DNA of 45,506 bases from NCBI GenBank assembly GCA_012799135.1, contig JAAZLW010000015.1:1-45506 (forward strand), read 5' to 3'. How positions within the stretch are numbered: the first letter of the stretch is position 1; every line of letters begins with the position of its first letter. The translations under genes were made by a program, and so were the position numbers. Positions 5,414 through 25,414 of the stretch are shown piece by piece. The notes beneath the pieces were generated by a model. The model was not told where the DNA came from. It did not search any database and was given only the letters and a program-made list of their open reading frames with translations. Origin of the DNA: Bacillota bacterium (GTDB lineage Bacteria; Bacillota; Limnochordia; DTU087).

Positions 5414-5427
5414 CGCCTATGCCTCCA

Positions 5428-6498: not shown

Positions 6499-6603
6499 TG
6501 GCGCTTTCCTCCTCACTCCGGTCCTGCATTCCTATCTACTGCTATAGTGTTGACCATCAAAACACACGTAAGGGCGGAATCTATCCCACATGGTCCTTCC
6601 ATC

Positions 6604-9788: not shown

Positions 9789-9950
9789 TGCCTACGCCCC
9801 CCATCTGCCTATTGGAATGTGACACTACAATATATGAGAATCGTCGGCCTTAGGAACCAGGAACCAAACCTTCTGCCATTCACCATCAAGTCCCAGATCA
9901 CATACTATGCCAATGGATATCATCCCCTAGCTAGAGAGGTAGTGATCGGG

Positions 9951-10652
9951 TTGGCATCTGAGCTCCCACCGGCAGTGATCTTAGCCGGAGGTCTGGGCAC
10001 CAGGCTAAGGCCCATAGTGTCTGAACGGCCCAAAGCCATGGCCTTGGTAGCCGGCAGGCCCTTCCTTATCCATCAGCTACAATGGCTGCAGGCTAATTCA
10101 GTGAGATCAGTGATCCTTTGCTTAGGGTACAAGGGAGAGCAAATCGCAAACTACTTCGGTGATGGTTCCAGCCTAGATTTAGCGATCATATACAGCTGGG
10201 AGGAGACCCCATTGGGCACTGCGGGTGCCCTAGCTCAGGCTGTCGACCTGCTTCCCCACGAGTTTCTAGTGGTCAATGGTGACACCTATACTGTCTTGCC
10301 TTTACAGCCCCTTTGGGATGCACACCACGAGTATGGTGCGATAGCCACCTTAGCCGTTGCACCTGCCCAGGATAGTAGTGCCGTCGGTGGCATCGAGCTC
10401 GACCCCGATCACCGCATCGTGGCTTTCCGGGAAAAAGAGTCAGGTGCCAAGCTGGTTAGCATGGGCATCTATGCTGCTACACGCAAACTAGTGGAGCTAA
10501 TCCCGCAAAGTCGCCCATGTTCCTTGGAAAAGGACATTTTCCCACATCTGCCTCGACTCTATGGTTACCTTTCGGAAGCCCGATTCATTGACATCGGGAC
10601 TCCTGCTGGCTATTTGGCCCTAGACCGTTACCTAAGCAGTTCGGGATCATGA
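9951..10652 (+). CDS. hddC: Sugar nucleotidyltransferase, probably D-glycero-alpha-D-manno-heptose 1-phosphate guanylyltransferase
   Basis: The motif AVILAGGLGTRLRPIVSERPKAMALVAGRPFL is the activation loop of RmlA/HddC-like nucleotidyltransferases, followed by VNGDTYT (metal-binding Asp), LVSMGIYA and FIDIGTPAGYL. The adjacent GHMP kinase of HddA type makes the heptose-1-phosphate guanylyltransferase role most likely; a glucose or mannose nucleotidyltransferase is the alternative. The ORF track starts at GTG 9819, but family members begin a few residues before the LAGG motif. TTG 9951 with AGAGAGG eleven bases upstream gives 233 residues, the normal size; GTG 9942 is also possible. The 160 bases before it are the divergent promoter region shared with GT1. 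Confidence 0.75.
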   Translation: MASELPPAVILAGGLGTRLRPIVSERPKAMALVAGRPFLIHQLQWLQANSVRSVILCLGYKGEQIANYFGDGSSLDLAIIYSWEETPLGTAGALAQAVDLLPHEFLVVNGDTYTVLPLQPLWDAHHEYGAIATLAVAPAQDSSAVGGIELDPDHRIVAFREKESGAKLVSMGIYAATRKLVELIPQSRPCSLEKDIFPHLPRLYGYLSEARFIDIGTPAGYLALDRYLSSSGS

Positions 10653-10689
10653 ATTCCTACAACCAATGCCCTTTGGAGGGGGAAATAAT

Positions 10690-11721
10690 ATGATCTTCCG
10701 CAGCAGAGCACCTTTACGGATTAGTTTTTGTGGTGGTGGTACAGATGTATCACCATACCCTGAAGAAAAGGGAGGAGTTGTGTTATCCACCACCATCGAT
10801 AAATATAGCTATGCGACTCTTGTTCCCCAAAGTGAGACAATCATCCAGGTCAAATCCCTGGATTTTGATGTAGTGGCCAAATATGATACCGACCATCAGC
10901 TAGTCTATGATGGTGAGCTGGACCTAGTCAAAGCAGTGCTCAATACCATTTCCGGTGCCAACGATTCCGGTTTTGACCTGTTTCTTCACAGTGATGCACC
11001 ACCGGGTAGTGGCTTGGGTTCCTCTTCTACCATGACGGTGACTATCGTAGGATTGATGCGTCAGTGGCTGCAGAAGCCTTGGACCAACTACGATATTGCC
11101 CAGCTGGCCTACCATATAGAGCGAGAAGTCCTAGGTATCAAAGGTGGCAAACAGGATCAGTATGCGGCCACCTTCGGAGGTTTTAATTTCATTGAGTTCT
11201 ATAAAGACTATACTGTGGTCAACCCCCTGCGCATCTCTCCCATCATTCTTAATGAGCTGGAATACCATCTGCTGCTTTGCTATACAGGAAAGACCCGGCT
11301 ATCTGCCCGCATCATTGAAACACAGGTACAAGGCTATGTGGAAAAACAGGCCACTTCTGTGGCCGCACTGGATGAGCTAAAACAGATTACACTAGATATG
11401 AAAAACGCACTCTTGCAGGGTCGGCTGGATGATTTCGGTACCCTACTACATGATGCCTGGGAGAATAAGAAACAACTGGCTAAGCAGATCACCAACCAGA
11501 GTATCGATCTACTTTACGAAACAGCTAGAAAAAATGGGGCTTTGGGAGGAAAGATCCTAGGTGCCGGAGGAGGAGGCTACCTTTTGGTTTACTGCCCCTT
11601 TGATCAAAAGCACATGATTGCCGAAAAGTTGGAAAACCTAGGGGGCCAAATAGTGAAGTTCGGTTTTGATCAGAACGGGCTACAGACCTGGGAAATAAAC
11701 GACGCCCAGTGTCGCTTCTAA
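10690..11721 (+). CDS. hddA: GHMP-family sugar kinase, probably D-glycero-alpha-D-manno-heptose-7-phosphate kinase
   Basis: The N terminus IFRSRAPLRISFCGGGTDVSPY is the substrate-side signature of the HddA/fucokinase branch of GHMP kinases. The ATP loop is DAPPGSGLGSSSTMTV and the C-terminal glycine motif is GAGGGGYLLVYC. HddA phosphorylates C1 of D-sedoheptulose-derived heptose 7-phosphate. I start at ATG 10690, with GGAGGGGG seven bases upstream, rather than the track start 10666; 343 residues fits the family. It follows hddC by 37 bases on the same strand. With gmhB at 1.6 kb this gives three of the four steps to GDP-D-glycero-alpha-D-manno-heptose; no sedoheptulose-7-phosphate isomerase (gmhA) is in the window. 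Confidence 0.82.
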   Translation: MIFRSRAPLRISFCGGGTDVSPYPEEKGGVVLSTTIDKYSYATLVPQSETIIQVKSLDFDVVAKYDTDHQLVYDGELDLVKAVLNTISGANDSGFDLFLHSDAPPGSGLGSSSTMTVTIVGLMRQWLQKPWTNYDIAQLAYHIEREVLGIKGGKQDQYAATFGGFNFIEFYKDYTVVNPLRISPIILNELEYHLLLCYTGKTRLSARIIETQVQGYVEKQATSVAALDELKQITLDMKNALLQGRLDDFGTLLHDAWENKKQLAKQITNQSIDLLYETARKNGALGGKILGAGGGGYLLVYCPFDQKHMIAEKLENLGGQIVKFGFDQNGLQTWEINDAQCRF

Positions 11722-11788: not shown

Positions 11789-12733
11789 CTAGAGCTCCTT
11801 AATATACGGTTTACCACTATGAGCTGGGCCTTCTGTATGGCCTATTAGCCCTGATACAACGACAATGGTCAGAATGAATGGTAACATTAAGAAGATCTCA
11901 TTTGGTATAGCAAAACCGGTGCCTTGCAGATTGTCGGCCAACGAAAAAAAGAATCCGAAAAGGAGCGAGGACCACATAACACCAACTGGCTTCCATTTAC
12001 CGAGAATCACCGCCGCCAAGGCAATATAACCACGTCCACCACTCATTAGGTACACAAACCTTGGCATTGTACCAATGGTTAGCTGGGCGCCGGCCGCACC
12101 GGCCAATAGCCCGCTAATTAGCACACCGGCATACTGAATCGGTTCCACTCGCACTCCCAAGGAATCCGCAACTTGTGGCGCTTCACCGACAGAGGTGAAA
12201 CGCAGGCCGAAAACTGTCCGCTCCAGGAGAAACCATCCGACTAAGACCAAAAGGAAAGCGAGATAAACCAATGGGCCCTGGCTAAAGACTGCATTGAGCA
12301 CAGGCCCTATCACAGGAATGGCCTTTAGAAACGGAATCGTGATGGTTGGTAGTTGGGCCACAAACTCACGCGCACTCCCCTGGCTTTGGAAAAGGGCAAC
12401 CAACAGATAACCTGTCAACCCTTGAGCCAAGAGATTCAAAGCTATGCCGCTGACTATGTGATCAACTTTGTAGGTAGTGGTGACTATAGCGTGGATCAGA
12501 GAAACCAAAAGCCCGGCAACCATGGCCCAAATCACGCCAATCCATGGGTTGCCTGTATAGTACGTCCCTGCATAACCGAAGAAAGCACCGATCATTATTA
12601 TGCCTTCCAGTGCTATATTGACTGTACCGGAACGCTCAGAAAAGACACCACCCAACGCGGTAAGCAGCAATGGAGTGGCTTGGACAATACTCTGGTGTAA
12701 TAGGGTCAAATTGAACACACTACCTAAACTCAT
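11789..12733 (-). CDS. nupQ: Nucleoside ABC transporter permease (NupQ/YufQ-type)
   Basis: A polytopic membrane protein of 314 residues with about eight to nine hydrophobic segments. LLLTALGGVFSERSGTVNIALEGIIMIGAF is the family signature of the second permease in BMP-dependent nucleoside importers, and GGRGYIALAAVILGKWKP is the coupling-loop region. Its ATG overlaps the stop of the first permease by four bases, so the two are translationally coupled and probably form the heterodimeric channel. It is the last gene of the six-gene nucleoside operon and ends convergent with hddA. Simple-sugar uptake is an alternative, made less likely by the uridine phosphorylase in the same operon. Confidence 0.9.
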   Translation of the reverse strand: MSLGSVFNLTLLHQSIVQATPLLLTALGGVFSERSGTVNIALEGIIMIGAFFGYAGTYYTGNPWIGVIWAMVAGLLVSLIHAIVTTTYKVDHIVSGIALNLLAQGLTGYLLVALFQSQGSAREFVAQLPTITIPFLKAIPVIGPVLNAVFSQGPLVYLAFLLVLVGWFLLERTVFGLRFTSVGEAPQVADSLGVRVEPIQYAGVLISGLLAGAAGAQLTIGTMPRFVYLMSGGRGYIALAAVILGKWKPVGVMWSSLLFGFFFSLADNLQGTGFAIPNEIFLMLPFILTIVVVSGLIGHTEGPAHSGKPYIKEL

Positions 12734-13785
12734 TTGTTTACCACCTTGTCTACAGCAGCGACTTCACGTTCCTCCGGCCTTTCGGCGACCACTGCCTGAA
12801 TGGCCACGGATAGAATCACTACAGCTTGAATAATCAAGACTACATCCTTGGGCACTCCGGCCGAGAGCTGCAATTCGAGATTGGCACTATTTAGCCCACC
12901 AAAGAGCAATGCTGCCGGTATCAAGCCCAGTGGTTTGTTTTTAGCAAGCAGTGCCACGGCAATTCCCGCAAATCCGGCCCCTGTAGAAAAATTGGCGACC
13001 AGCTTGTGGAAGACGCCTCCGACTATAATCGCACCGGCCAAACCGGCGAAAGCACCGGCCAGCATCATTCCAAATAGCCAGTAACCCTTGATATTCGTTC
13101 CGGCATAGGTAGCCATACGGGGATTTAGGCCAACTGTATTAAGCACAAATCCTTGTTTTGTCCTAGTCAAAAACCAGTGGATAAGAATAACGCAAGCCAC
13201 AGCAATGATGACCGAGATGGTCACTGGGCTTACAGGGTTATTCCATAGTACCGGCAAATGGGCGCTTGGTTTGATCGGATGGGTTTGGGCAGAATAGGAA
13301 CCCTTGTTCAAGGGACCCTTGGTGACCATATAGTTGACGAAGAACTGTGCAATATAGTTGAGCATAATCGTGCTTATTACCTCATGAGCACCGGTATATG
13401 CTTTAAGCAGCCCAGCTACACCCGCAAGTAATGCTCCAAATAACGCGCCCACCACAAGCAGTAAGGGGACTTCGAGAATCCCTGGCAGATCCACATAAAG
13501 GCCAACTAAGACCGCGCCTAGAGCGCCCATGTATAGCTGACCTTCACCCCCGATGTTAAACAAGCCTGCTTTGAAGGCCACTAAGACCGCCATTCCCGTA
13601 AGGATGAGAGGGATTGTATTATTGATTGTGACTGCCAGGCTGTCCAGGGTACCAAACGATCCTACCCAGATTGCCCGCAATGTAAGTAATGGACTGGCCC
13701 CGGTCAATGCCGCCAAGACTAGGCTGATGGCAAGACCTATACAAACGGCGATCAGGGCAGATCCGAAACCACTGGTGATTCTCAC
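12730..13785 (-). CDS. nupP: Nucleoside ABC transporter permease (NupP/YufP-type)
   Basis: A 351-residue membrane protein. An N-terminal hydrophobic segment is followed by PLILTGMAVLVAFKAGLFNIGGEGQLYMGALGAV, the characteristic block of the first permease in this family, and by GAFAGLAGAIIVGGVF and AGFAGIAVALLAKNKPLG near the C terminus. It begins two bases after the ATPase stop codon, at a GTG. It forms the membrane channel with the second permease. The C-terminal 20 residues are charged and probably cytoplasmic. Confidence 0.9.
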   Translation of the reverse strand: MRITSGFGSALIAVCIGLAISLVLAALTGASPLLTLRAIWVGSFGTLDSLAVTINNTIPLILTGMAVLVAFKAGLFNIGGEGQLYMGALGAVLVGLYVDLPGILEVPLLLVVGALFGALLAGVAGLLKAYTGAHEVISTIMLNYIAQFFVNYMVTKGPLNKGSYSAQTHPIKPSAHLPVLWNNPVSPVTISVIIAVACVILIHWFLTRTKQGFVLNTVGLNPRMATYAGTNIKGYWLFGMMLAGAFAGLAGAIIVGGVFHKLVANFSTGAGFAGIAVALLAKNKPLGLIPAALLFGGLNSANLELQLSAGVPKDVVLIIQAVVILSVAIQAVVAERPEEREVAAVDKVVNK

Positions 13786-13787
13786 TA

Positions 13788-15323
13788 CTATCCCGCTTCC
13801 CTTCCCTGTAACATCAGTAATCCGATCTGTTTTAAGTCTGCATTCTTACTGGTAAATGCACCGACGATGCGTCCATTATACATGACCAAAATCCTGTCAC
13901 TTAGGGTGAGTATTTCATCCAACTCCATAGAAATGAGCAGGATCGCCTTACCCTGGCTCCTGGCCTGAAGCAGGTGGTGATAGACGTACTCCATGGCTGC
14001 TACATCCAGTCCTCTAGTGGGCTGATTGGCAATCAACACTTGTGGATCATGATCCAGCTCCCTGGCGACAATAACTTTCTGCTGATTTCCTCCGGAAAGA
14101 TGCCGGGCAGCAGTATTCCCTTCGGGAGGACGGATATCGAACATTTCGATTAGCCTGTCTGACCGCTCCTCTATGGCCTTATGCTTTAGCAAGATGGTTC
14201 CACTGAGTTCAGGCCGTTCTTCGTGACCGATGGTTACATTGTCCTGAATGGAGAGCTCCATAACCAGGCCGGTACGGCGTCTATCCTCTGGGATATAAGC
14301 AATACCCGATTCTCGTTTCGGCCTAACACCACCAAGAGTAACATCTTGTCCTCGGACTAAGATCTGACCACTAGTTGGCTCAATTAACCCTGTCAACATT
14401 TCAGCCAGTTCACTCTGGCCATTGCCAGATACCCCTGCGATACCCAGAATTTCGCCTTCTCTAATCTCAAAGCTAACACTGTCAACCAGAAGATTACCCG
14501 AGGTAACCTCCCGTAATGATAGGTCCCTCACTGTTAGAACCGGCTCCCCGGCTTGAAGCGGAGGTGGTGTGACACTCAATATAACATTGCGGCCGACCAT
14601 AAGAGAAGCTAATTCACTGCTGGTGATTGACTTTGTAGGCAACGTCTTGACTGTCTTGCCCCTACGCATCACCGTGACTTGGTCAGCTATAGACATAACC
14701 TCATTGAGTTTATGCGTAATCAGGATAATCGTTTTACCCTGTTTCTTTAGGTTTCTTAGCATGCGGAAAAGCTCATCAACCTCTTGTGGGGTCAAGACAG
14801 CGGTAGGTTCATCCAATATCAGGATCGAAGCACCTCGGTAGAGGACCTTAAGCAGTTCGATCTTCTGCTGGGTACCAACAGCCAGACCCGCTACCTGGGT
14901 ATGTAAGTCCAGCTGAAAACCTAACTCTGCCGCAAGTTGCCTAACCTCCTCTTCGCCTTTGTGGCGATCTACCCGTAATCCCCGTCTTGGCTCCTGACCC
15001 AGAATAATATTGTCCAATGTAGTAAGCCGTGGAACTAACATGAACTCCTGATGAACCATGCCGATGCCGTGCTCGATGGCTACCCTCGGATCTGTCAGCC
15101 TCACGGTCTTACCGTTAATTCGGATGATCCCGCTATCCACCATATAAAAGCCATACAGAAGGCGCATGAGAGTGCTTTTCCCTGCTCCATTTTCGCCGAC
15201 AACAGCATGAATATCTCCCCGTCTGACCTTTAGGTCTCCGTGGTCTACTGCTACCACTTGGGAAAATCTCTTGACCACCTGGTGCATCTCAACTGCGTAA
15301 GGTGCGTGATTGCCGCTATCCAT
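13788..15323 (-). CDS. nupO: Nucleoside ABC transporter ATP-binding protein (NupO/YufO-type, two ABC domains)
   Basis: A tandem ABC ATPase of 511 residues. The first domain has Walker A GENGAGKST, the Q loop HQEFMLVP and Walker B LLILDEPTAVLT with a following His switch LITHKLNE. The second domain has Walker-A-like GVSGNGQSELA, signature LSGGNQQKVIVAREL and the degenerate Walker B VLIANQPTRGLD. This asymmetry (one canonical, one degenerate site) is normal for sugar- and nucleoside-type double ATPases. I start at ATG 15323 with AGGAGG eight bases upstream; the track begins six codons earlier at TTG. It powers import with the two permeases and the BMP binding protein. Confidence 0.92.
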   Translation of the reverse strand: MDSGNHAPYAVEMHQVVKRFSQVVAVDHGDLKVRRGDIHAVVGENGAGKSTLMRLLYGFYMVDSGIIRINGKTVRLTDPRVAIEHGIGMVHQEFMLVPRLTTLDNIILGQEPRRGLRVDRHKGEEEVRQLAAELGFQLDLHTQVAGLAVGTQQKIELLKVLYRGASILILDEPTAVLTPQEVDELFRMLRNLKKQGKTIILITHKLNEVMSIADQVTVMRRGKTVKTLPTKSITSSELASLMVGRNVILSVTPPPLQAGEPVLTVRDLSLREVTSGNLLVDSVSFEIREGEILGIAGVSGNGQSELAEMLTGLIEPTSGQILVRGQDVTLGGVRPKRESGIAYIPEDRRRTGLVMELSIQDNVTIGHEERPELSGTILLKHKAIEERSDRLIEMFDIRPPEGNTAARHLSGGNQQKVIVARELDHDPQVLIANQPTRGLDVAAMEYVYHHLLQARSQGKAILLISMELDEILTLSDRILVMYNGRIVGAFTSKNADLKQIGLLMLQGREAG

Positions 15324-15346
15324 CTCATGCGCCTCCTGCAAAAACC

Positions 15347-16456
15347 CTAGTTTACTACTGAATAAAGCTCCTGGGGAACCGTGAAGCTCTCGATGAATTC
15401 CTGAGCATTGTCCACAGCCAGTGGGATTTCTAGTTCTTTGTTCCCCGCCCGCATTAGCTCAATGGCCTTATCGACGATTGCCAGAGCTTTGTCAGGCACA
15501 AAGTTCTTAGTGTAACGCATATCGGTGATGCCGGTTGCATTTTCTTGGATACCTACTGCATGGGAGCCGCCCTTAAATGTCCCATCTTGGACATCCTTGA
15601 TAGCCCCAAAGATCACTTCGGGCACATTCTTCAGGGCACTGGTCAACATCATCCCAGGATAGATATCGTCTTGATCGAGGTCAAGACCAATACCCAGGAA
15701 CTGTGGCGGGGTGCCATCTGCTATTGCCTCAATGGCAATCCCAGCTTCTTCGTTTTTCTCCTTGACTGCCTGAAAAACCCCAAGTCCAGTATTAGCCCCA
15801 CTCATCATAATATCTACGTTTTGGCCAATCATGGATAGAGCCAGTGCCTTGCCTCTGGCAGGATCATTAAACGCACCGGCATCCTTCACAACCAATTCAA
15901 CTTGGCTACCGGTCAACTCATTCCATGTTTTGATCCCGGTACCAAGGCCGGCAGTAAAAGCAATAACCGGTGGAATAGACATAGGCTCAACCATACCCAC
16001 CCTACCTGTCTTAGTTGTGGCTGCGGCTACAATACCAGCCAGATAACTGCCTTGACCGGCCCTGATTTCATATGAAGCCAAATTCGGTAAATCCTCTGCC
16101 ACAGAGTCTACCAGCACAAAGTTTACGTCTGGGAACCTGGCTGCAACCTCAGAGATGGCATCTACCATTAGAAAACCCAACGCTACAACCACATCAGCTT
16201 GACGAGCTGCTGTAGTCAGGTTGGGAATAAAATCAGTCTGCTGAAAAGACTGGATGACATTGCCCTTAACTCCAAGCTTTTTCTCGGCCATCTGCACCCC
16301 GAGCCAGCCGCCATCATTAAAGCCCTTATCTCCCAGGCCACCGATATCGGTAACCAGGATAACTCGCAACTCTTCTCCGGAAGCCACCGCAGTGCTAAGT
16401 CCAGATAGACTAAACACCAAGATCAAGATACAAACCAGCATTTTCCTCTTAGTCAT
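15347..16456 (-). CDS. BMP-family substrate-binding protein (nucleoside receptor), no lipobox
   Basis: The mature part starts RVILVTDIGGLGDKGFNDGGWLG, the signature of the PnrA/BMP family that binds purine and pyrimidine nucleosides for ABC import; VALGFLMVDAI and GSYLAGIVAA follow. The first 26 residues form a signal peptide, MTKRKMLVCILILVFSLSGL..., ending in STAVASG. No Cys follows the hydrophobic core, so it lacks the lipid-anchor site usual in Gram-positive members and looks like a signal peptidase I substrate. The ATG overlaps the end of the phosphorylase gene by eight bases. It is the receptor for the transporter encoded immediately downstream. Confidence 0.92.
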   Translation of the reverse strand: MTKRKMLVCILILVFSLSGLSTAVASGEELRVILVTDIGGLGDKGFNDGGWLGVQMAEKKLGVKGNVIQSFQQTDFIPNLTTAARQADVVVALGFLMVDAISEVAARFPDVNFVLVDSVAEDLPNLASYEIRAGQGSYLAGIVAAATTKTGRVGMVEPMSIPPVIAFTAGLGTGIKTWNELTGSQVELVVKDAGAFNDPARGKALALSMIGQNVDIMMSGANTGLGVFQAVKEKNEEAGIAIEAIADGTPPQFLGIGLDLDQDDIYPGMMLTSALKNVPEVIFGAIKDVQDGTFKGGSHAVGIQENATGITDMRYTKNFVPDKALAIVDKAIELMRAGNKELEIPLAVDNAQEFIESFTVPQELYSVVN

Positions 16457-17309
16457 TTACTTTTCCCCCTTTGCTTTGCTTGGCTAATAAGCCAGGATAG
16501 ATATACCGCTTCCCTGTGTGTTTCTTCGTTGCATCCCATTCTGCCAAAATCTTCACCGCGTGTGTCGCCGCCCTAGAGACCTTCTCCTCGACTCCCTCAT
16601 CACTCCAGATATTGTTAATCCGATCCGCCACAATGCCCACAATCATCCCGGCCCGCTTCCGGTATAGCCTGGCCAAGGTAAGTAGAGTCGCTCCCTCCAT
16701 CTCCAGGTTTGTGACTCCCACCCTCTGATAGTGCTCTAGAAGCTGTTCCTTTCCGGGTGCTACATAGTCGTCATAAGCAGGTCTTGCTTGACCGGCAAAA
16801 AAGGACCCAGTGGTAGCCGCCAGTCCCAAATGATAGGAAAACCCCAATTCTTCACAGGCTTGGATCAGTGCCATGACTACATCGTAGTCTGCGTAAGCCG
16901 GGTATTCAGGCCATACATATAGACTAGATGTACCATCAAAACGGACTGCCCCTGCATCAATGACAAGGTCACCACAGTGGATATCAGATTGAATGGAACC
17001 ACTGGTTCCGACCCGGATCAAAGTCTCGGCTCCCAGGCGGGCCAATTCATCCAGTACTACCTCGGTAGAAGGTCCCCCTACACCGGTAGATACAGCGGAA
17101 ATGTCGACTCCCTGATATGTTCCTGTAGCTGTCCGATATTGCCGGTAATTGCCCTTTTCCTCAAACTTGTCCCAGTAACAGGTAATCTTGGGTATCCGAT
17201 CAGGATCACCCGGCAAAAGAACATATGGGGCAAGATCGCCTTTGCGCAACCTGGTTGCATAGGCCACACCCCCTACCTCGGGTCTGTCTGCCGCCGATTG
17301 TGCCATCAT
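16449..17309 (-). CDS. udp: Uridine phosphorylase (nucleoside phosphorylase family 1)
   Basis: Motifs of the NP-I family are clear: VLLPGDPDRIPKI with the phosphate-binding Gly-Asp-Pro, LIRVGTSGSIQ, and NLEMEGATLLTLARL, the Glu-Met-Glu that binds the ribose. It splits uridine (or a related nucleoside) with phosphate into base and ribose 1-phosphate in the cytoplasm. The purine-specific Asp in the usual late position is not evident (GIVADRINN), in keeping with a uridine enzyme, though a purine-specific role is not excluded. ATG 17309, with AAAGG six bases upstream, is chosen over the GTG two codons earlier. It lies between the MtnA-like gene and the nucleoside receptor gene. Confidence 0.87.
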   Translation of the reverse strand: MMAQSAADRPEVGGVAYATRLRKGDLAPYVLLPGDPDRIPKITCYWDKFEEKGNYRQYRTATGTYQGVDISAVSTGVGGPSTEVVLDELARLGAETLIRVGTSGSIQSDIHCGDLVIDAGAVRFDGTSSLYVWPEYPAYADYDVVMALIQACEELGFSYHLGLAATTGSFFAGQARPAYDDYVAPGKEQLLEHYQRVGVTNLEMEGATLLTLARLYRKRAGMIVGIVADRINNIWSDEGVEEKVSRAATHAVKILAEWDATKKHTGKRYIYPGLLAKQSKGGKVND

Positions 17310-17332
17310 AGTCACCCTTTCATCATGATCAG

Positions 17333-17370
17333 AAAGGCCAACCGTCAGTTGGATTCACCGGTTGGCCTTT
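17333..17370 (-). terminator. Intercistronic hairpin spanning the stop codon of the MtnA-like gene
   Basis: A 12-bp perfect stem AAAGGCCAACCG/CGGTTGGCCTTT on the minus strand. Its 5' arm lies in the last codons of the MtnA-like gene, the stop TGA is in the loop, and the 3' arm is followed by only CTGATC. It may be a partial terminator or an RNA-processing/stability hairpin that sets different levels for the first gene and the rest of the operon. Confidence 0.6.
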
Positions 17371-18403
17371 TCTCTACCATCACGTGATTCTTGATATCAG
17401 AAGGGGCAAACACACCATTGGCACAGACAATAGCAGAAATGTACTCAGGGGGAGTGACATCAAAGGCTGGATACTCGGCCCTAAGCTCCGGAATAGTTGT
17501 TGGAACCCCGTTTACCTCTTTCACCTCGTCGGCGTTCCGTTGCTCGATGACGATATCGGCACCGGTATTAATGTTTGGATCCACACCCTCATAGGCAAGT
17601 ACAAAGAAGGGAATTCCATGGGCATGAGCAGCAATGGCATGGAGAAACGTTCCTACTTTATTGGCAATCGAGCCATCCATGGCAACAGCATCAGCTGCAG
17701 TGACATACTTATTAATCTTACCGGCTGCCATCATGTAGGCACTCATACTATCAGTGATTAGAGTTACCGGAATACCCATCTCGTGGATGCTTGGTGCTGT
17801 CAACTTAGCACCCTGCAAATATGGCCGAGTCTCACAAGAGTAAACTGATATCTGCTTGCCGGCCTCCCTGGCAAAGTGAAACATCCATAGAATAGCACCG
17901 GCCGCGTAGCAATGGGTAAGAACAGTATCACCATCATCTAGGAGACTAGCGGCATGGCGTCCTGTCTCGCGGCTCACTTCATCAAAATAAGCTAGATAGC
18001 CTTGGACATGCTGAAGGAGCCTTTCCTCCAAATCAGCCGAGCCACCAAACTTCTCGGCTATCTGCTCAAGCTCATGAATCAAGACCCACAAGCGCTGTCC
18101 GGTGGGCCTGGTATTCCTTAGTCTTTCTGCTGCCTTCTGCAAATGCTGACGACGCTTGTCCATAGAGAATTTGCGAGCAGTATGAGCTGCTTGTACATAT
18201 CCCAACCCAGCAGCTACCGCGACCCCAATAGCCCCTTGGATTACCATATCCTCCACGGCCCTAGCTGTAGCTTCATAATCAGTGCAAGTCAACCATTCCC
18301 TCTCAAATGGGAATTTCCGGCGATCAAGCACTTCCACTTGTCCATCTTGATACTTTAGTGTATTGGCATCGCTAATTAGAATTGGCATCTTGTGTTTGGT
18401 CAA
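17345..18403 (-). CDS. MtnA/eIF2B-family aldose-1-phosphate isomerase (methylthioribose-1-phosphate isomerase-like)
   Basis: Family landmarks are present but altered: GAIGVAVAAGLG (usually GAPAIGVAAA), RPTGQRL, LTHCYAAGA with the catalytic Cys, ETRPYLQGAKLTAP, ITDSMSAYMM, and AADAVAMDGSIANKVGT with the catalytic Asp. MtnA converts 5-methylthioribose 1-phosphate to the ketose; relatives act on ribose 1,5-bisphosphate or 5-deoxyribose 1-phosphate. This copy is the first gene of a nucleoside uptake operon next to uridine phosphorylase, whose product is ribose 1-phosphate, so another aldose 1-phosphate is a plausible substrate. I start at TTG 18403, with AAGGGGAG eight bases upstream; ATG 18436 has no good ribosome binding site. 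Length about 352. Confidence 0.8.
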   Translation of the reverse strand: MTKHKMPILISDANTLKYQDGQVEVLDRRKFPFEREWLTCTDYEATARAVEDMVIQGAIGVAVAAGLGYVQAAHTARKFSMDKRRQHLQKAAERLRNTRPTGQRLWVLIHELEQIAEKFGGSADLEERLLQHVQGYLAYFDEVSRETGRHAASLLDDGDTVLTHCYAAGAILWMFHFAREAGKQISVYSCETRPYLQGAKLTAPSIHEMGIPVTLITDSMSAYMMAAGKINKYVTAADAVAMDGSIANKVGTFLHAIAAHAHGIPFFVLAYEGVDPNINTGADIVIEQRNADEVKEVNGVPTTIPELRAEYPAFDVTPPEYISAIVCANGVFAPSDIKNHVMVEKRPTGESN

Positions 18404-18507
18404 ATATGGATCTCCCCTTTCCATGTCTCGAGCCATCAGAACTTCGCAAGGTTTGGTCTTCAGTTGACCCCTTGGACCTTCCCGTAAATTTCTATATCGT
18501 TCTATTT

Positions 18508-18569: not shown

Positions 18570-19691
18570 CTAGTTTCGCTTCACTGCCTCATAGACTAAC
18601 ATCGTCTCCGTCACAGCCTTTTTCCAGGAGTAGCGCTTTACCCATTCCCTGCCCTTCTGTGCGAGCCGGATAGCCGTCTTCCCGTCGGTAATTACCTGTA
18701 CTATAGCCTCAGTCAGTCCCGCCTCATCATAGGGTTCAACCTGCCACGCCCCTTCCCCCACCACTTCCGTCAAAGCTGCAGCATTGGAGGTGATAGTCGG
18801 AGTCCCACAAGCCATAGCCTCCAAAGGCGGCATACCGAAACCTTCATAGAGGGATGGATAGACAAAGACATCAGCAGCACAATAGAATTGGGGTAAATCC
18901 CGGACAGGGACATAACCGGGGAAGACTAGCTGTTTCTCTATGCCTAGGGCTCGAGCCAGTTGCAAGAGCCCCGCTACCTCGGGAGTCGCCCGTCCGGCCA
19001 CGACCAATATAGCCCCTGATCCTACTTCCTTGCAGCTGGCGGCAAAGGCGCGTAGCAGTAATCCCACGTTCTTGCGCAAGCTAAAGCCACCTACATAGAG
19101 GATCAAAGGATTGCCTGTTATGCCATAGCACTCTTCTAGAAACTCTCGGCAGGGGGCTTGCGGCAAAGACACGTAGATAGGCTCAGGTGCCGGATAGATC
19201 ACGACAATTTTCTCCGGCGGTACCTCAAGATGACGAAGAATATCCTTTCTCGAATAATGTGAAACAGTAATTAGCTTATCTGCCCGCTTGGCGATATAGG
19301 GCATTTGCTTTAGGAAGCGGCGGAGGAAAGTAGAATTGCATGTCTGGGGCAAGATATAGGGAATTACATCATGTAGAGTGACTACCACCGGGAAGGGAAC
19401 TTGTTGGGGAAGATTAAGACCATTTTGCGGCATATGGTAGAGATCGATTTTCGCTTCCAACATAGCGCCCATCATATGGGTTTGCTCTACTTGCCAGTCA
19501 GGGTTTTCCGGCACCGCCACTCTGTGCACATTAGGCGCTTCACCCATCATCGTAACGGCCGACTCCGGGCAAAAAAAGAGAAACTCATGGTTAGCTCTGG
19601 TGGCCAATCCTTTAGCCAATTGGTAGGTATATGTGCCGATCCCTGTCCCTCTAAACCAGACGGCTCCCCGGGCATCAATGGCGATCTTCAT
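18570..19691 (-). CDS. GT4-family glycosyltransferase (GT 2 of 3)
   Basis: A 373-residue GT-B enzyme beginning MKIAIDARGAVWFRGTGIGTYTYQLAKGL, nearly the same opening as GT1, with YVGGFSLRKNVGLLLRAF and the EX7E-type motif YPSLYEGFGMPPLEAMACGTPTI. The ORF track extends it 79 codons upstream, but that part overlaps the preceding gene out of frame and has no family similarity. ATG 19691 has GGGG just upstream and leaves a 17-base overlap with the pseudokinase gene, so the two are coupled. Nucleotide-sugar donor not known; GDP-mannose or GDP-heptose are candidates from context. Confidence 0.92.
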   Translation of the reverse strand: MKIAIDARGAVWFRGTGIGTYTYQLAKGLATRANHEFLFFCPESAVTMMGEAPNVHRVAVPENPDWQVEQTHMMGAMLEAKIDLYHMPQNGLNLPQQVPFPVVVTLHDVIPYILPQTCNSTFLRRFLKQMPYIAKRADKLITVSHYSRKDILRHLEVPPEKIVVIYPAPEPIYVSLPQAPCREFLEECYGITGNPLILYVGGFSLRKNVGLLLRAFAASCKEVGSGAILVVAGRATPEVAGLLQLARALGIEKQLVFPGYVPVRDLPQFYCAADVFVYPSLYEGFGMPPLEAMACGTPTITSNAAALTEVVGEGAWQVEPYDEAGLTEAIVQVITDGKTAIRLAQKGREWVKRYSWKKAVTETMLVYEAVKRN

Positions 19692-20715
19692 ACCCCAATT
19701 CATCCCCCAGTAGCCTCTGCCAGTATTCCTGTCGATCTGTTGCTTGCCCCCACTCCCGCCGCAATGTTTCCATAGCCTCCGGCTCATCCAGCTTACGACT
19801 TCCCTTATAGTAATCATAGGCAGCTTCCCAGACCCCTTCAGGAAAGATGCCCAATCCATAGATAAGCCCAAGTTCTGCACGGCAGAGAGGCCGGATGGCT
19901 TGATAAGCGGCAAGTACCCCTTGGGCAATAGCTAATGACCCTTCGGCATATTCATTGATATTCCCTAAAAGAGCAGCTACATCCAGGGCCAGAAGACCCC
20001 AAGTGCTTTTTTTGAGATTCGGAAGCTGTACTTTTCCATCATCAGTTACCCGGAACATTCGGCCATGGCAATTGCCCTGCAAGAGCCCTACTAGTTTTGG
20101 GTCTGTTTCTAAGTCATGAATCCCAATCTCTGTCAATAGATCAACTGAGCAGTGGAGCAACCCAGCCAAATGGTCATAGATTTCCAGGTAAAACAGGTCA
20201 AAGGCTTTAGGATATAATCGATTGAGGGCCATGATTCGGAAAAGATTTAGCTCCTGGCGTTTTGGAATCAATGCCGGTTCGATAGGGTTTGACCTCTCTA
20301 CACCTTCCTGTAAGGACAAGGGCAACTGCTGAGATAGTAAATGCAACTCTGCCAGGACCGATGCGATCCTGACGCCATCTTCCTTTAGACTAAGCTCACC
20401 CCGTCGACCACCCGCCCTAGTACTCATATAGGTCAGCTGATCATTGAAGTAGAACCCCAGATCTCCTGACGAAGTTACCCGTAAGGTCCCCAGCCCGGCA
20501 AGCCCCTGGCCTTGCAAGTAATCCCAACATTGCAGTATAGCAATGGTCTCTTTTGGTTGCTCAGTATGGTATAGCTGAAAAACTCCCTCCCGGGTAAAAA
20601 CCGTATAACAGCCTTCGCCTGGCTCCATGAGTGTTACGTCTAGATTGTAGACAGTCTCCAGCTGCGCAGCCAGAACCTGATTATTTGTGTCTTCGTCCGC
20701 TAACAACCGCAGCAA
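19675..20715 (-). CDS. Degenerate CotS-like protein, predicted pseudokinase (copy D)
   Basis: By length, predicted secondary pattern and position before a GT4 gene this is a CotS homologue, with IFPEGVWEAAYDYYKG in place of the FPxExWxxxxxYY block. The catalytic parts are gone: the candidate N-lobe Lys is Tyr (FQLYHT), HxD reads HGR in GNCHGRMFRV, the loop Asn is missing, and the DFD metal motif is replaced by LPNLKK. The reading frame is intact over about 346 codons, so it is not a decaying gene. It is expected to lack kinase activity and may serve as a scaffold or a regulator of a partner. I start at TTG 20715 with AAAGGGGG upstream; the track start (TTG 20769) lies in a hairpin. Confidence 0.75.
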   Translation of the reverse strand: MLRLLADEDTNNQVLAAQLETVYNLDVTLMEPGEGCYTVFTREGVFQLYHTEQPKETIAILQCWDYLQGQGLAGLGTLRVTSSGDLGFYFNDQLTYMSTRAGGRRGELSLKEDGVRIASVLAELHLLSQQLPLSLQEGVERSNPIEPALIPKRQELNLFRIMALNRLYPKAFDLFYLEIYDHLAGLLHCSVDLLTEIGIHDLETDPKLVGLLQGNCHGRMFRVTDDGKVQLPNLKKSTWGLLALDVAALLGNINEYAEGSLAIAQGVLAAYQAIRPLCRAELGLIYGLGIFPEGVWEAAYDYYKGSRKLDEPEAMETLRREWGQATDRQEYWQRLLGDELGYEDRH

Positions 20716-20767
20716 AGACAGCCACCCCCTTTGCCGGGTCAATGCCTGCACTTGAGCACGGAGACCC

Positions 20768-20801
20768 AAAGGCCGGTCTTATTGTCAAGAAACCGGCCTT
20801 T
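20768..20801 (-). terminator. Hairpin between copies E and D
   Basis: Ten-base perfect arms AAAGGCCGGT and ACCGGCCTTT enclose 14 bases, 30 bases past the stop of copy E. On the minus strand it is followed by GGGTCTCC after a TTT inside the stem, so it is at best a partial terminator or a processing site. It covers the start of copy D proposed in the ORF track. Confidence 0.5.
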
Positions 20802-20831: not shown

Positions 20832-23069
20832 TTACAGGGAGCGCCTCTCCCGGCCCCGACGACGTCTCCCCAAGGGCTCCGGAAAACTCGCCCACTCCAC
20901 TGTTGAACCTCGGGTTCCGGGGCTCGGCGAGATGAGCTCCGGTTGTTTCCCATCCCCAATCATCTTTTCCCCTTCAGCTTCCTCTGCTAGCACTAACTGG
21001 AACGCTATCTCCCGCTCTGCTTCCGGACCTGGCTCTTTTGCAGCCGGTGCAGCTGCTTCCCAGGCCTCTGATACCTTTTCCTCGGATACGGGCATTACTT
21101 GATCGAGTTGGTCGGCGGCTACAGTCAACTGCACGGTGCCCTCTTCACTGTCCTCTGCTTCGGGTGATGCCGCCTTTAATACCATCTCTTGGGTAGCTGG
21201 GCCTCCCCTCAAAACCTCGGGGGGCATTGGTGCTTTGTAGGTTACTTCCTTGCCCTCAACCTGTTCTAAGCCTACCGCATACTCGACTGGGATCTCCATG
21301 CCCGGTTCAATCAACTCCATCGGCTTTACGCCAGGCCCAGTTAGCACCGGCATCTCGTTATCCTGCACGACCCCTCCACGGTCTTCTCTCAAAGATACAG
21401 CCTCTTCTATCGGTACTTCCCGATTGATGTGTTCCATGTCAACGGCTTGATCCAGCCTCACCTCACCTTCTTTCCCCAGTTGTAAGTCAAAAGCCCCCAT
21501 ACCTTCCTGCACCATTACTTCTTCTCCCATATCTGATGGACACTCCCCTACCCCAGCCATGATTGGTATGCTAGGACTCTCTTCTTTGTGGCCTCTTGGG
21601 ATTTCCACAGGGATCTCCACGCCTGGTTGCATAGCATCATCTACCTGCACACCTTCCTGGCTTGGCTCAGAGATGTGCCTTTCGCCCATCCATGCATCAC
21701 CTCCCACAGGTTCTTCTGTGAACATGGCACCGGAGATGGTTTCCAAACGCCTAGCCAAGCTGGCCAATTCATGGCGAAGAGCCCATAGCTCTTCATCTTC
21801 TAGCTGCCCATATTCAGTGTCTTCGTCCCCCCAGTAGAAAGACTGTGGCCAATGGTCTGGTTCTCCAGTGTCCGGCTGGGGTGTCTCGGGTATCTCGTAC
21901 TTGCCCTCGGCCTCTGGATGAGAATCAGCCTGGATCTCGATCTCCGGCACTTCAGATACAACTACCGGCAGCTCTTCCGATTCAGCCTCTACCGACACGG
22001 GCAAAGGATAGGGGATGGTCTGGAACAGCTGTACCGGGCTGTGTACTAGCTTAGATGGCTGGACCTGGGCCAGGGCTTTGGCAAAGGCTTCCTGCTTTGC
22101 GAGTTCATCTATAGCTCTCTCTAAGCGTTCTAGATGAATCTTACCCTGCTCATAGAAGGAGCGAGCCACCTGCCACCCTCGGTTGGACAAGGCACAAAGA
22201 GCCGGCAAGAGAGCCATTTCTTCCCGAGTCAAAGGGTTTGCCTCCTGATAGCTTTTGATCAGAAATAATGCCTTGTCTACATCCCAATCGCTGTGACGAA
22301 TTAGCATTCGCCCCAGGTCATATATCCTAAGATCTGACCGGGCATTATCAAAATCGATTACGTAGATCTTGCCATCATTGCCGGCAATCAGATTGCTGGC
22401 AATGGGGCTCGTATGGCAGGTTGTGATCAGCTCTGCCTCCTGGCTCAGTAGCTCATAATCGCCTTCGTCAAGCAACTGCAATCCAATACCCATTATCCGA
22501 ATGAAATCATCGGCCACCTGACAAAATCGGCGGCCAAACTTACCCCTACGAGCACTTTCCGCCTGTTGTCGATACTTCTCCAAGTCCTCCGCCTGTCGGC
22601 CATATTTCTCTTGCCAGTTAGGTGCTATCTGGCGGTGACACTCCCCCACTCCTCGATAGTCCTGGACTAAGCGATGCATTTCCCCTAGGACTTTTACTGC
22701 CATCTCCAGATGAAATGGATCCTCAGGGTCCACCTCTGTACCCTGCACCCAGGCAGATGCATAGACTAACCCCTGGGGGGTCTCCACATAAGGCGCACCA
22801 TCCTTAGTCAGATGCAGGGGCATACTTCTTTTCCACCCCTTACCGGCTAGGTGCTCTAGGGCTCCGTGGACATAGTCCAATTCTGCCTGGGAATACTTGA
22901 AGAATTTGACCTTTTTCCAACCTTGGCTGGTGTTGACCTTAAATACTCCGTTCTCTTTCTCGACCTGCAATATCCTCAGATCGTAATCATCTGCGATCGA
23001 CTGCAAAACCTGGTATTGGTCCAACACGCTATGAAATCCCAAGCGACGCCGTTTTCTCATTCTGCCCAT
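20832..23069 (-). CDS. CotS-like protein with altered catalytic loop and ~410-residue acidic tail (copy E)
   Basis: Residues 1-335 are a CotS-like APH fold: N-lobe WKKVKFFKYSQAELDYV, catalytic loop TTCHTSPIASN, metal motif VIDFDNA, and ALSNRGWQVARSFYEQG. The HxD Asp is replaced (HTS), while the loop Asn and DFD remain. The remaining ~410 residues are Pro/Glu/Val-rich, low-complexity and acidic, with loosely repeated blocks (PGVEIPVEIP, PGMEIPVEYA, REVPIEEA) and a very basic end, GRRRRGRERRSL. Such tails in spore coat proteins often mediate assembly; this one I do not recognise. I start at ATG 23069 with GGGAGG about eight bases upstream, not the track start 23162. First gene of the E-D-GT2 operon. 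Confidence 0.82.
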   Translation of the reverse strand: MGRMRKRRRLGFHSVLDQYQVLQSIADDYDLRILQVEKENGVFKVNTSQGWKKVKFFKYSQAELDYVHGALEHLAGKGWKRSMPLHLTKDGAPYVETPQGLVYASAWVQGTEVDPEDPFHLEMAVKVLGEMHRLVQDYRGVGECHRQIAPNWQEKYGRQAEDLEKYRQQAESARRGKFGRRFCQVADDFIRIMGIGLQLLDEGDYELLSQEAELITTCHTSPIASNLIAGNDGKIYVIDFDNARSDLRIYDLGRMLIRHSDWDVDKALFLIKSYQEANPLTREEMALLPALCALSNRGWQVARSFYEQGKIHLERLERAIDELAKQEAFAKALAQVQPSKLVHSPVQLFQTIPYPLPVSVEAESEELPVVVSEVPEIEIQADSHPEAEGKYEIPETPQPDTGEPDHWPQSFYWGDEDTEYGQLEDEELWALRHELASLARRLETISGAMFTEEPVGGDAWMGERHISEPSQEGVQVDDAMQPGVEIPVEIPRGHKEESPSIPIMAGVGECPSDMGEEVMVQEGMGAFDLQLGKEGEVRLDQAVDMEHINREVPIEEAVSLREDRGGVVQDNEMPVLTGPGVKPMELIEPGMEIPVEYAVGLEQVEGKEVTYKAPMPPEVLRGGPATQEMVLKAASPEAEDSEEGTVQLTVAADQLDQVMPVSEEKVSEAWEAAAPAAKEPGPEAEREIAFQLVLAEEAEGEKMIGDGKQPELISPSPGTRGSTVEWASFPEPLGRRRRGRERRSL

Positions 23070-23230
23070 TCCCGTTCCCTCCCGTCGGGATGTCAGCTTC
23101 CATATATTAATATGATAGGACTGAAATCCCTGTGCTTCGTTCACCAAATCTGTGATGGTCAAATATAATAAATACGCACTATAGCCCTGTGTGCCAACCG
23201 GCAGATAGCATCGGAAAGGATGGAGGGCTC
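23070..23230. promoter_or_regulatory. Divergent promoter region between copies E and F
   Basis: AT-rich 161-base region between two outward-facing operons. On the plus strand TTCACC, an 18-base spacer and TATAAT (23148-23177 region) would suit a sigma-A promoter with a weak -35. The minus-strand CATATTAATA could belong to a sporulation sigma factor but the match is poor. I cannot assign a sigma factor with confidence. Confidence 0.3.
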
Positions 23231-24229
23231 GTGACCTTGGAACAGGCGGCCGCCCATCAATTCGGCATTGTCCCGAACAAGATAACAGCAGTACGCCGAG
23301 CCTTTAAGGTTGTCAGTGTTCAAGGCATCTTTGCCCTTAAGAAAAGCCGCCAAAGTAAGACCGGAATACATTTTATCCATGCAGCCAAGGAGCACCTATA
23401 CGAGCAAGGTATGACCAATATCGATCGATATGTCCTTACCCCAGACAAAGCTCCTTATGCAGATGTAGAAGAACACCTGTTTGTGATGAGTGCTTGGGTA
23501 GACAGTCGGGAGGCTCACTATGATGCCCTTAGTGACGTAATCCCGGCAGCAACAGTTTTGGCAATGCTTCACCAAAGTGCCCGAGGTTTTGTCCCACCTG
23601 CAGCACCTGACCGGATTTGGTGGGGCTCTTGGCCCGGTCTCTGGCACGAACGGCTGGAAACACTGCAACAGTATAAAGCCATAGCTCAAACACAAGTAGC
23701 CCCCAGCCGCTTCGATCGACGGTTTCTTCGATATATTGATCGACACTGGGAACAAGGTCGAGAGGCCTTGCAAATCCTGACCGGTTCCGAATACACTAAC
23801 GTAACCGCTCAATACCAGATGGCAGGCTGTATCTGTCATCACGACTACTCTGAGAGGAACGTGCTATTTACCCCCACACATACCGTCCATTTGGTGGATT
23901 TCGATTACTCTATCTGTGACCTCCCTATCCACGATCTGGTGAACTTTCTGAGGCGAGTGGCCAAGTTTACCAGCTATAATGGAGACACAGCCTGCCGGGC
24001 ATTGGCAGCTTATTTGGATATAAATCCCCTATCAAAGGAAGAACTGCAGCTCTTTGTTCCCCTTTGGCTTTGGCCTCAGAAATTCTGGGAAGTTACCTAT
24101 CAGTACTATGGTGAAAAACGCACTCGACCGAGGGGAAAATACTCTGATCGGCTACGCCGCCGCTGCCATACCAGGGAGAAGGAGCGGTGCCTCTTGGAGC
24201 ACATAGCAAGAGCTTTTCAGCTCAGCTGA
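23231..24229 (+). CDS. CotS-family spore coat kinase-like protein (copy F)
   Basis: A 332-residue APH-fold protein with N-lobe IFALKKSRQ, catalytic loop CICHHDYSERN (HHD about 203-205, Asn 210) and metal motif LVDFDYS (223-225), followed by HDLVNFLRR. The tail block LWLWPQKFWEVTYQYY matches the other copies. All phosphotransfer residues are present. The track begins at GTG 23189; I prefer GTG 23231 because GGAGG sits four bases upstream and the start then lines up with the other copies. It is the first gene of a plus-strand operon with GT3 and a small membrane protein. Confidence 0.86.
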   Translation: MTLEQAAAHQFGIVPNKITAVRRAFKVVSVQGIFALKKSRQSKTGIHFIHAAKEHLYEQGMTNIDRYVLTPDKAPYADVEEHLFVMSAWVDSREAHYDALSDVIPAATVLAMLHQSARGFVPPAAPDRIWWGSWPGLWHERLETLQQYKAIAQTQVAPSRFDRRFLRYIDRHWEQGREALQILTGSEYTNVTAQYQMAGCICHHDYSERNVLFTPTHTVHLVDFDYSICDLPIHDLVNFLRRVAKFTSYNGDTACRALAAYLDINPLSKEELQLFVPLWLWPQKFWEVTYQYYGEKRTRPRGKYSDRLRRRCHTREKERCLLEHIARAFQLS

Positions 24230-24271: not shown

Positions 24272-25414
24272 ATGGCCAGGATATGCATCGATGCCCGCCC
24301 GGCTGTCATGGCTAGGGGAACAGGTATCGGTAACTATGTATACCAGTTGATCCACTTTCTGGCTGAGCTCGATCAGGAAAACGAATACTACCTGTTATGG
24401 CCTGATGACGGAACTGATCCCTTATTGATGCCACCGAATTTCCACCACCGGCCCATAACTAGGAATAGACGAGAAGAAGCTGTCGAATTGCCCCGCTGGT
24501 TAGAGGAAAGCAAGATCCAGCTCTACCACGCACCGGATAACGGACTACACGCTTTCCCGGCGGCTAGCTGTCCATTGGTAGTGACTATCCATGACCTGAT
24601 CCCCTTGGTCATGCCCGAGACGGTCAGACGCGGCTATCGGCGCACTTTCCTAGAGAAGGTACCAGAAGTGGCCCAACAAGCCAGCCGCATACTTACCGTT
24701 TCCCAGGCAGCTCAACGGGACATTCACAACGTTTTCACTATACCTTATGAGAGAATTCAGGTAATCTACCCTGCTCCAGAGTTAGTCTTTGTTCCCGGTA
24801 ATTTACAGCGGGCTAGGCATAAGCTCTATGTCAAGCATGGGATCGCTCGTCCTTATGTTCTTTACACTGGAGGTCTTAATCCTCGAAAAAACGTAGTGGA
24901 GTTGATCTACGCCTTTGCCAAAGTAAGAAAACACGGGGATAAAAGCCTCCTACTGGTGATCCTTGGCGAGTTTTCCAAAGGTATGGAGGACTTGCCTGGC
25001 CTATGCAGGGCTTTGGGCGTGGATAAAGCCGTTATTTTCCCCGGCTTTGTGCCCATGGAGGATATAGTGACTTTCTATCAAGGAGCAGAGCTCTTTGCCT
25101 ATCCCAGTCTTTATGAGGGTTTCGGTTTGCCCCCCCTGGAGGCCATGGCTTGTGGAATCCCGGTGATTGCCAGCCCGGTGCCTTCCGTAACCGAGGTAGC
25201 GCTACAGGCAGCACTCCTTGTTAATCCTGAAGATACTACTGCTTTGGTCGAGCAATTAGACAGGGGGCTTAGGGATATGCCGTTGCGACAAATATTGAGT
25301 CAAAGGGGCCGTGCAGCCATAGCCCCTTTGAGCTGGGAAAACACCGCCAGACAGACATTGGCGGTATATAAAGAAATTCTGGGCGACTCGACAGAGAAGC
25401 CAAATGGCAGGTGA
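24272..25414 (+). CDS. GT4-family glycosyltransferase (GT 3 of 3)
   Basis: A 380-residue GT-B enzyme with the same plan as GT1 and GT2: ICIDARPAVMARGTGIGNYVYQLIHFL at the N terminus, YTGGLNPRKNVVELIYAFAK, and YPSLYEGFGLPPLEAMACGIPVI with the EX7E-type glutamates. The ATG is preceded by AAAGGGG. It follows copy F by 42 bases, giving the third CotS/GT4 pair of the window, here in the order CotS then GT4. Retaining transfer from a nucleotide sugar is expected; donor and acceptor are unknown. Confidence 0.92.
   Translation: MARICIDARPAVMARGTGIGNYVYQLIHFLAELDQENEYYLLWPDDGTDPLLMPPNFHHRPITRNRREEAVELPRWLEESKIQLYHAPDNGLHAFPAASCPLVVTIHDLIPLVMPETVRRGYRRTFLEKVPEVAQQASRILTVSQAAQRDIHNVFTIPYERIQVIYPAPELVFVPGNLQRARHKLYVKHGIARPYVLYTGGLNPRKNVVELIYAFAKVRKHGDKSLLLVILGEFSKGMEDLPGLCRALGVDKAVIFPGFVPMEDIVTFYQGAELFAYPSLYEGFGLPPLEAMACGIPVIASPVPSVTEVALQAALLVNPEDTTALVEQLDRGLRDMPLRQILSQRGRAAIAPLSWENTARQTLAVYKEILGDSTEKPNGR

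Follow-up and report, generated by a model that had tools for sequence, protein, structure and literature searches.

In the window, meaning the whole 45,506-nucleotide stretch of Bacillota DNA analysed here, one minus-strand gene encodes a 745-residue CotS-like protein. Judged from sequence, its kinase-like half appears to have lost the catalytic residue, and it is followed by a long acidic tail, predicted to be disordered, that ends in a W-x-x-F-P motif. The tailed protein is read as a putative pseudokinase scaffold of the BSK (CotS/YtaA) family that would hold glycan enzymes at the spore coat, and this reading is given a probability of about 0.5. A predicted dead kinase with a conserved disordered tether stands beside glycan genes in most lineages having the tether, which turns the question of its role into the question of what the end motif binds. 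Such a scaffold would tie pseudokinases to spore-surface glycan assembly in uncultured Bacillota.

The gene and the main features of its first half are as follows.

20832..23069, minus strand: tailed CotS-like pseudokinase gene, 745 residues (open reading frame listing and orthologs)
22035..23069, minus strand: CotS/BSK-fold head, residues 1-345 (AF2 model, 2q83 match and TIGR02906)
22404..22418, minus strand: catalytic loop CHTSP, Asp replaced by Ser221 (orthologs)
22338..22358, minus strand: metal motif IDFDNAR, kept (alignment)

The ATG is located at 23069 and the stop at 20832, and this is the sole gene of the interval in the open reading frame listing. The initial annotation had thus marked a real frame but gave no strand. 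An in-frame TTG exists upstream, at 23162; the ATG at 23069 was chosen on account of the GGGAGG ribosome-binding sequence ahead of it and of an in-frame TGA that immediately precedes the ATG in the ortholog of genome G002.

The head possesses the CotS kinase fold, as had been proposed for the first half of the protein. Against TIGR02906 the protein scores 172.2 bits (cut-off 172.7) and, in the genome search, 175.2 bits, with about 175-193 bits for the orthologs, and Pfam APH matches the head at 34.5 bits, above the cut-off of 23.2. The AF2 model of residues 1-345, built from an alignment of 45 sequences, has a pLDDT of 89.9 and a pTM of 0.86. Its closest PDB structure is 2q83, the B. subtilis YtaA/CotI (TM 0.82, E 1.6e-17), which is also matched by sequence profile (4.7e-16). 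In YtaA numbering, the catalytic Asp239 is replaced by Ser in all ten orthologs covering the site, and Lys72, Asn244, Asp257 and Asp259 are all kept, which bears out the earlier proposal of a retained metal motif and a missing catalytic Asp. Lys55, Asn226 and both Asp residues of DFD are invariant across the family orthologs. The structural residues His148 and Asp269 of YtaA correspond to the conserved His132 and Asp251. In the hydrophobic linker (F83, Y90, S151 and Y154), the position of F83 is aromatic, as is mostly that of Y154; Y90 is replaced by His, as in several intact paralogs, and Ser151 by Leu or Val. The four other non-degenerate CotS paralogs in the window all contain the catalytic Asp. 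By the published criterion (PMC2860764), the head is a predicted pseudokinase, in which nucleotide binding may persist.

The second half of the protein contains short conserved islands within an acidic chain.

20835..22028, minus strand: acidic Pro/Val-rich tail, residues 348-745, predicted disordered (composition, charge-hydropathy and coil in the low-confidence full-length model)
22005..22028, minus strand: island LFQTIPYP (columns invariant or near-invariant)
21822..21839, minus strand: island FYWGDE (conserved columns; a WG(D/E/G) island at a like position in a second class)
21729..21791, minus strand: predicted tail helix, residues about 425-447 (alignment and low-confidence full-length model)
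21603..21626, minus strand: PGVEIPVE, the weaker-conserved copy (sequence)
21450..21470, minus strand: island EGEVRLD (conserved columns)
21279..21305, minus strand: island PGMEIPVEY, the better-conserved copy (conserved columns)
20841..20900, minus strand: C-terminal motif VEWxxFPEPL and basic run RRRRGRERR (orthologs and tailed relatives)

Beginning at LFQT (residue 348) and running to the C-terminus, the tail comprises 398 residues with 17% Glu, 10% Pro and 9% Val and a net charge of -58, while the final 12 residues carry a net +6; the Glu/Pro/Val-rich acidic tail with a basic terminus had been correctly recognized. By charge-hydropathy, the tails fall on the disordered side and the heads on the folded side in all seven complete family proteins tested. 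The full-length AF2 model has a pLDDT of only 37.8 and was used for coarse secondary structure alone. In an alignment of eight orthologous C-terminal halves, 40 columns are invariant, so the conservation is not due to chance. Among these columns, 31 lie from LFQT onward, clustered in the islands LFQTIPYP, FYWGD, EVR, PVEY and V-x-W-x-x-F-P-E-P followed by RRR, and the tail between the islands is variable in length and sequence. Third codon positions are the most variable, and the dN/dS of the tail is 0.18-0.39 where not saturated; on this codon evidence, the tail is real protein under purifying selection. The initial annotation was right in calling the tail acidic and of low complexity, but it overlooked the fixed islands and the W-x-x-F-P end. 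Its PG(V/M)EIPVE-like repeats do exist, but "repetitive" is an overstatement, because just two copies occur (residues 482 and 589) and the first is often missing in the orthologs; the second is recognizable in most of them.

A known domain in the tail was rejected, in agreement with the expectation of a novel tail: searches against Pfam and NCBIfam gave no above-threshold family for the tail, DUF6779 being sub-threshold (E=0.04). A tail profile retrieves nothing beyond the window's own family from 73 same-class genomes, and from 300 genomes of the phylum the own family plus three marginal short matches only.

An assembly or frameshift error fusing two genes, the pitfall named beforehand, has a negligible probability. 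The gene is found in all ten other genomes of the taxonomic family, which are separately deposited MAGs; in G001 the gene start alone is present at a contig end, and several others are contig-split within the tail. The fusion of head and tail recurs, with the same synteny, in independent MAGs from several genera, and a like fusion exists in another class. Furthermore, the whole tailed frame has a coding signature and no stops. Full-length orthologs, a tail dN/dS of about 0.2-0.4 and the conserved gene order therefore exclude the artefact.

Around the tailed gene, the gene order in the relatives is constant, with a divergent intact CotS and a GT4 gene on one side and a degenerate CotS and a GT4 gene behind. 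Further out, HddA/HddC, more CotS genes, ManC, PMM and GmhB follow. The nearest neighbours in the window are listed below.

19675..20769, minus strand: downstream degenerate CotS-like partner without HxD or DxD (profile matches and synteny)
18570..19700, minus strand: GT4 glycosyltransferase 3' of the pseudokinase pair (Pfam and synteny)
23189..24229, plus strand: divergent CotS with intact catalytic loop HHD (profile, synteny and alignment)
24272..25414, plus strand: GT4 glycosyltransferase after the divergent CotS (Pfam and synteny)

The degenerate partner at 19675-20769 is kept in ten genomes and always adjoins the tailed pseudokinase. The window contains six CotS-like genes in total. GmhB-, HddC- and HddA-like genes (1443-2237, 3974-6516 and 9819-11721), together with ManC and phosphomannomutase homologs, are situated among the CotS and GT4 genes, which suggests synthesis of a GDP-heptose/mannose glycan for the spore surface. 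In the relatives, HddA lies directly next to the GT4 gene at 18570; in the window they are separated by an inserted block (11789-18436) of a BMP-type lipoprotein, an ABC transporter, a nucleoside phosphorylase and an MtnA-like gene. A GmhA-like isomerase adjoins the cluster of genome G283 and is not present in the window. SpoIVA is found in 10 of the 11 genomes of the taxonomic family, so these organisms are taken as spore formers. CotH is absent from all 11, and for SpoVID the C-terminal LysM-type end alone matches, with no full-length protein above cut-off.

Since the tail profile was nearly empty outside the family, the CotS loci themselves were surveyed, and it was through these head-based surveys that a wider tailed group was found. 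The survey took in regions around CotS matches in a 399-genome sample of the phylum, plus some same-class loci; the genomes are mostly MAGs, and tailed members are undercounted because only the best-scoring CotS regions were covered. It yielded 135 CotS-like ORFs, six with a C-terminal extension of at least 150 residues. Two of the six are fusions of CotS to a GT4 glycosyltransferase in one ORF (G445, locus L158:2066-5017, and G320, locus L153:2321-5023), with an intact HQD loop and a CotSA-like GT4. The other four (G283, G210, G259 and G084), picked by length alone without use of the motif, have acidic tails that all end in W-x-x-F-P (VWKAFPK, VWKPFPPPLPPRG, LSWSKFPTPIKK and VWDRFPDPLD). This end occurs in 0 of the 131 remaining surveyed CotS and in 2 of 2122 background ORFs; when the tailed side also includes the GT4 fusions, the comparison is 4/6 versus 0/129 (P about 1e-6, approximate given the relatedness of the sequences). 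The earlier remark that no CotS protein with such a tail was known thus does not hold, as several other Bacillota families contain tailed CotS proteins that carry this C-terminal motif. Loci L146, L148 and L149, from one genus of family f35, encode CotS with a Lys-rich low-complexity N-terminal extension.

In a second class, that of G259, tailed CotS proteins occur in 9 of 29 genomes, and all nine end in the motif (for example LQWSSFPKPIKE, IKWDDFPKTFPVRK and IQWGNFPKK); the tail of one, G469, includes masked bases. Their tails contain a W-G-(D/E/G) island resembling the FYWGD of the window. Downstream of each of the nine genes comes a second CotS-like gene; wherever its catalytic region was inspected, it is degenerate. 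All nine also adjoin a divergent HddA gene (heptose kinase), after which GmhB and GT4 usually follow. At the G084 locus, no heptose or GT4 neighbours were recognized within 20 kb. Overall, the W-x-x-F-P end is present in all complete family orthologs and in 11 other tailed proteins; in other proteins of the family genomes, the C-terminal motif was found at no convincing E-value. Outside the window's family, 9 of the 11 tailed proteins lack the catalytic Asp, as do 24 of 128 untailed ones, and the two outside tailed proteins that keep it each lack another key residue (Asp257 or Lys72).

In quick trees of the heads alone, the tailed proteins of f1, G084, G283 and f110 group together (SH-aLRT 91 in one tree), and the group includes the untailed CotS of 7647. 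G210 lies inside the group once and outside once, and G259 has no firm place in the first tree. The tail may have had one origin with some losses. The paired tailed and degenerate pseudokinases, in which one partner has a disordered tether whose end is of docking type, are proposed as a new BSK subfamily.

The scaffold reading rests on several connected observations. The catalytic Asp is lost, the tail is under selection with fixed islands amid length-variable acidic sequence, and the same arrangement of head, acidic tail and W-x-x-F-P end recurs in other families. Simultaneously, the synteny with GT4 and heptose genes is conserved, CotS-GT4 fusions exist, and published work (PMC2860764) reports that entry of CotSA into the spore depends on CotS and that BSK genes lie alongside those of glycosyltransferases. 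As the fusions of G445 and G320 indicate, CotS domains and enzymes of this class are able to work within a single chain. In the proposed mechanism, the head would bind the second pseudokinase, an active CotS or else a GT4 enzyme, the flexible tail would provide reach, and the end motif would act as a plug docking on some constant part of the coat or of the glycan machinery. Such docking would concentrate the heptose/mannose glycan enzymes on the forespore surface. The tether to the coat suggested at the outset is accordingly plausible in the light of the fusions and the published CotSA dependence, with the role itself still conjectural. A narrower proposal, that the hydrophobic-x-W-x-x-F-P end is a coat-addressing docking signal common to distant Bacillota classes, read by a constant receptor and directing the pseudokinase scaffold, along with its glycan enzymes, to the surface of the forespore, is tentative and rather less likely to hold than to fail.

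The invariance of Lys55, Asn226 and the DFD residues would also suit an enzyme with altered chemistry that is positioned by the tail. Residues of the Lys/Asn/DFD type are often lost in strict pseudokinases, and SelO, which also lacks the usual catalytic Asp, performs nucleotidyl transfer; non-canonical catalysis of this kind is possible given the retained Lys, Asn and DxD. However, the tailed relatives elsewhere mostly have D257 replaced by Asn or K72 by Ser, Arg or Glu, so catalysis is not common to the tailed group, and this explanation is considered unlikely. An equally improbable alternative is that the tail works by bulk charge, through cation binding or as an electrostatic coat glue, with the short motifs of minor importance. 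The net charge does stay between -54 and -82 in the tails of all complete orthologs, most of the sequence being variable, but neither the invariant islands nor the cross-family W-x-x-F-P end is expected from bulk charge alone, and several second-class tails are weakly acidic over the last 150 residues.

The idea that the tail carries the modification itself, as an acceptor of glycan or phosphate, fares worse and is very unlikely. It draws on the position of the gene within a glycan cluster and on the phosphorylated serine-rich region of the coat protein CotB (PMC7821199). Against it, Ser and Thr make up 8.8% of the tail compared with 7.2% of the head, no Ser is invariant, the single invariant Thr lies in LFQT, and the taxonomic family has no CotH kinase.

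Compared with the BSK family (CotS, YtaA/CotI, YutH, YsxE and BSKC1-7; Scheeff et al., PMC2860764), the tailed protein shares the head fold, a CotS HMM match close to the cut-off, the distribution in spore formers, the link to glycosyltransferases and the repeated loss of the catalytic Asp. In that work, several BSK classes are predicted pseudokinases and BSK genes sit with glycosyltransferases; predicted catalytic activity was lost repeatedly, and a non-enzymatic role has been a question since the first description of the spore kinases. Here, by contrast, a conserved disordered tail of about 400 residues with a W-x-x-F-P end is present, of which the accessible text of PMC2860764 describes no counterpart, and the tailed and degenerate pseudokinases form a pair beside heptose genes. 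In the case of B. subtilis CotS-CotSA, a CotS-type protein is likewise clustered with a GT4-type glycosyltransferase, but that CotS keeps the catalytic Asp (PMC2860764), which the tailed protein has lost, and the window has six CotS-like genes. The G445 and G320 fusions similarly join a CotS domain by a linker to glycan machinery, but their HQD loop is intact, their C-terminal part is an enzyme, and they lack the W-x-x-F-P end. The CotH/CotB/CotG phosphorylation module also combines a kinase-like protein with low-complexity coat proteins, but CotH belongs to another family and is missing here. A literature search of partial coverage, on heptose in spores and on more recent BSK studies, returned nothing relevant.

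Upstream of the tailed gene, a further conserved element is located.

23070..23160, minus strand: near-invariant non-coding DNA of about 90 bp, promoter/leader (92-99% identity in ten relatives)

The element exists as a single copy per genome and is a putative mother-cell sigma promoter, as judged from its bases. An RNA was rejected, with no Rfam family near the gathering score and a fold z-score of 0.32, and coding sequence was rejected owing to a stop in G002. This degree of identity is maintained while synonymous sites in the coding DNA are close to saturation, and among the intergenic stretches compared, the tRNA-Arg region alone is as conserved. CATA-type -10-like sequences occur on both strands of the element. 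Meanwhile, a short element, GCATAGGATATTTTATGA, is conserved in all eight aligned f110 genomes between the divergent HddA and the tailed gene (L251-L257 and L188), and it also fits CATA-type -10 sequences on both strands.
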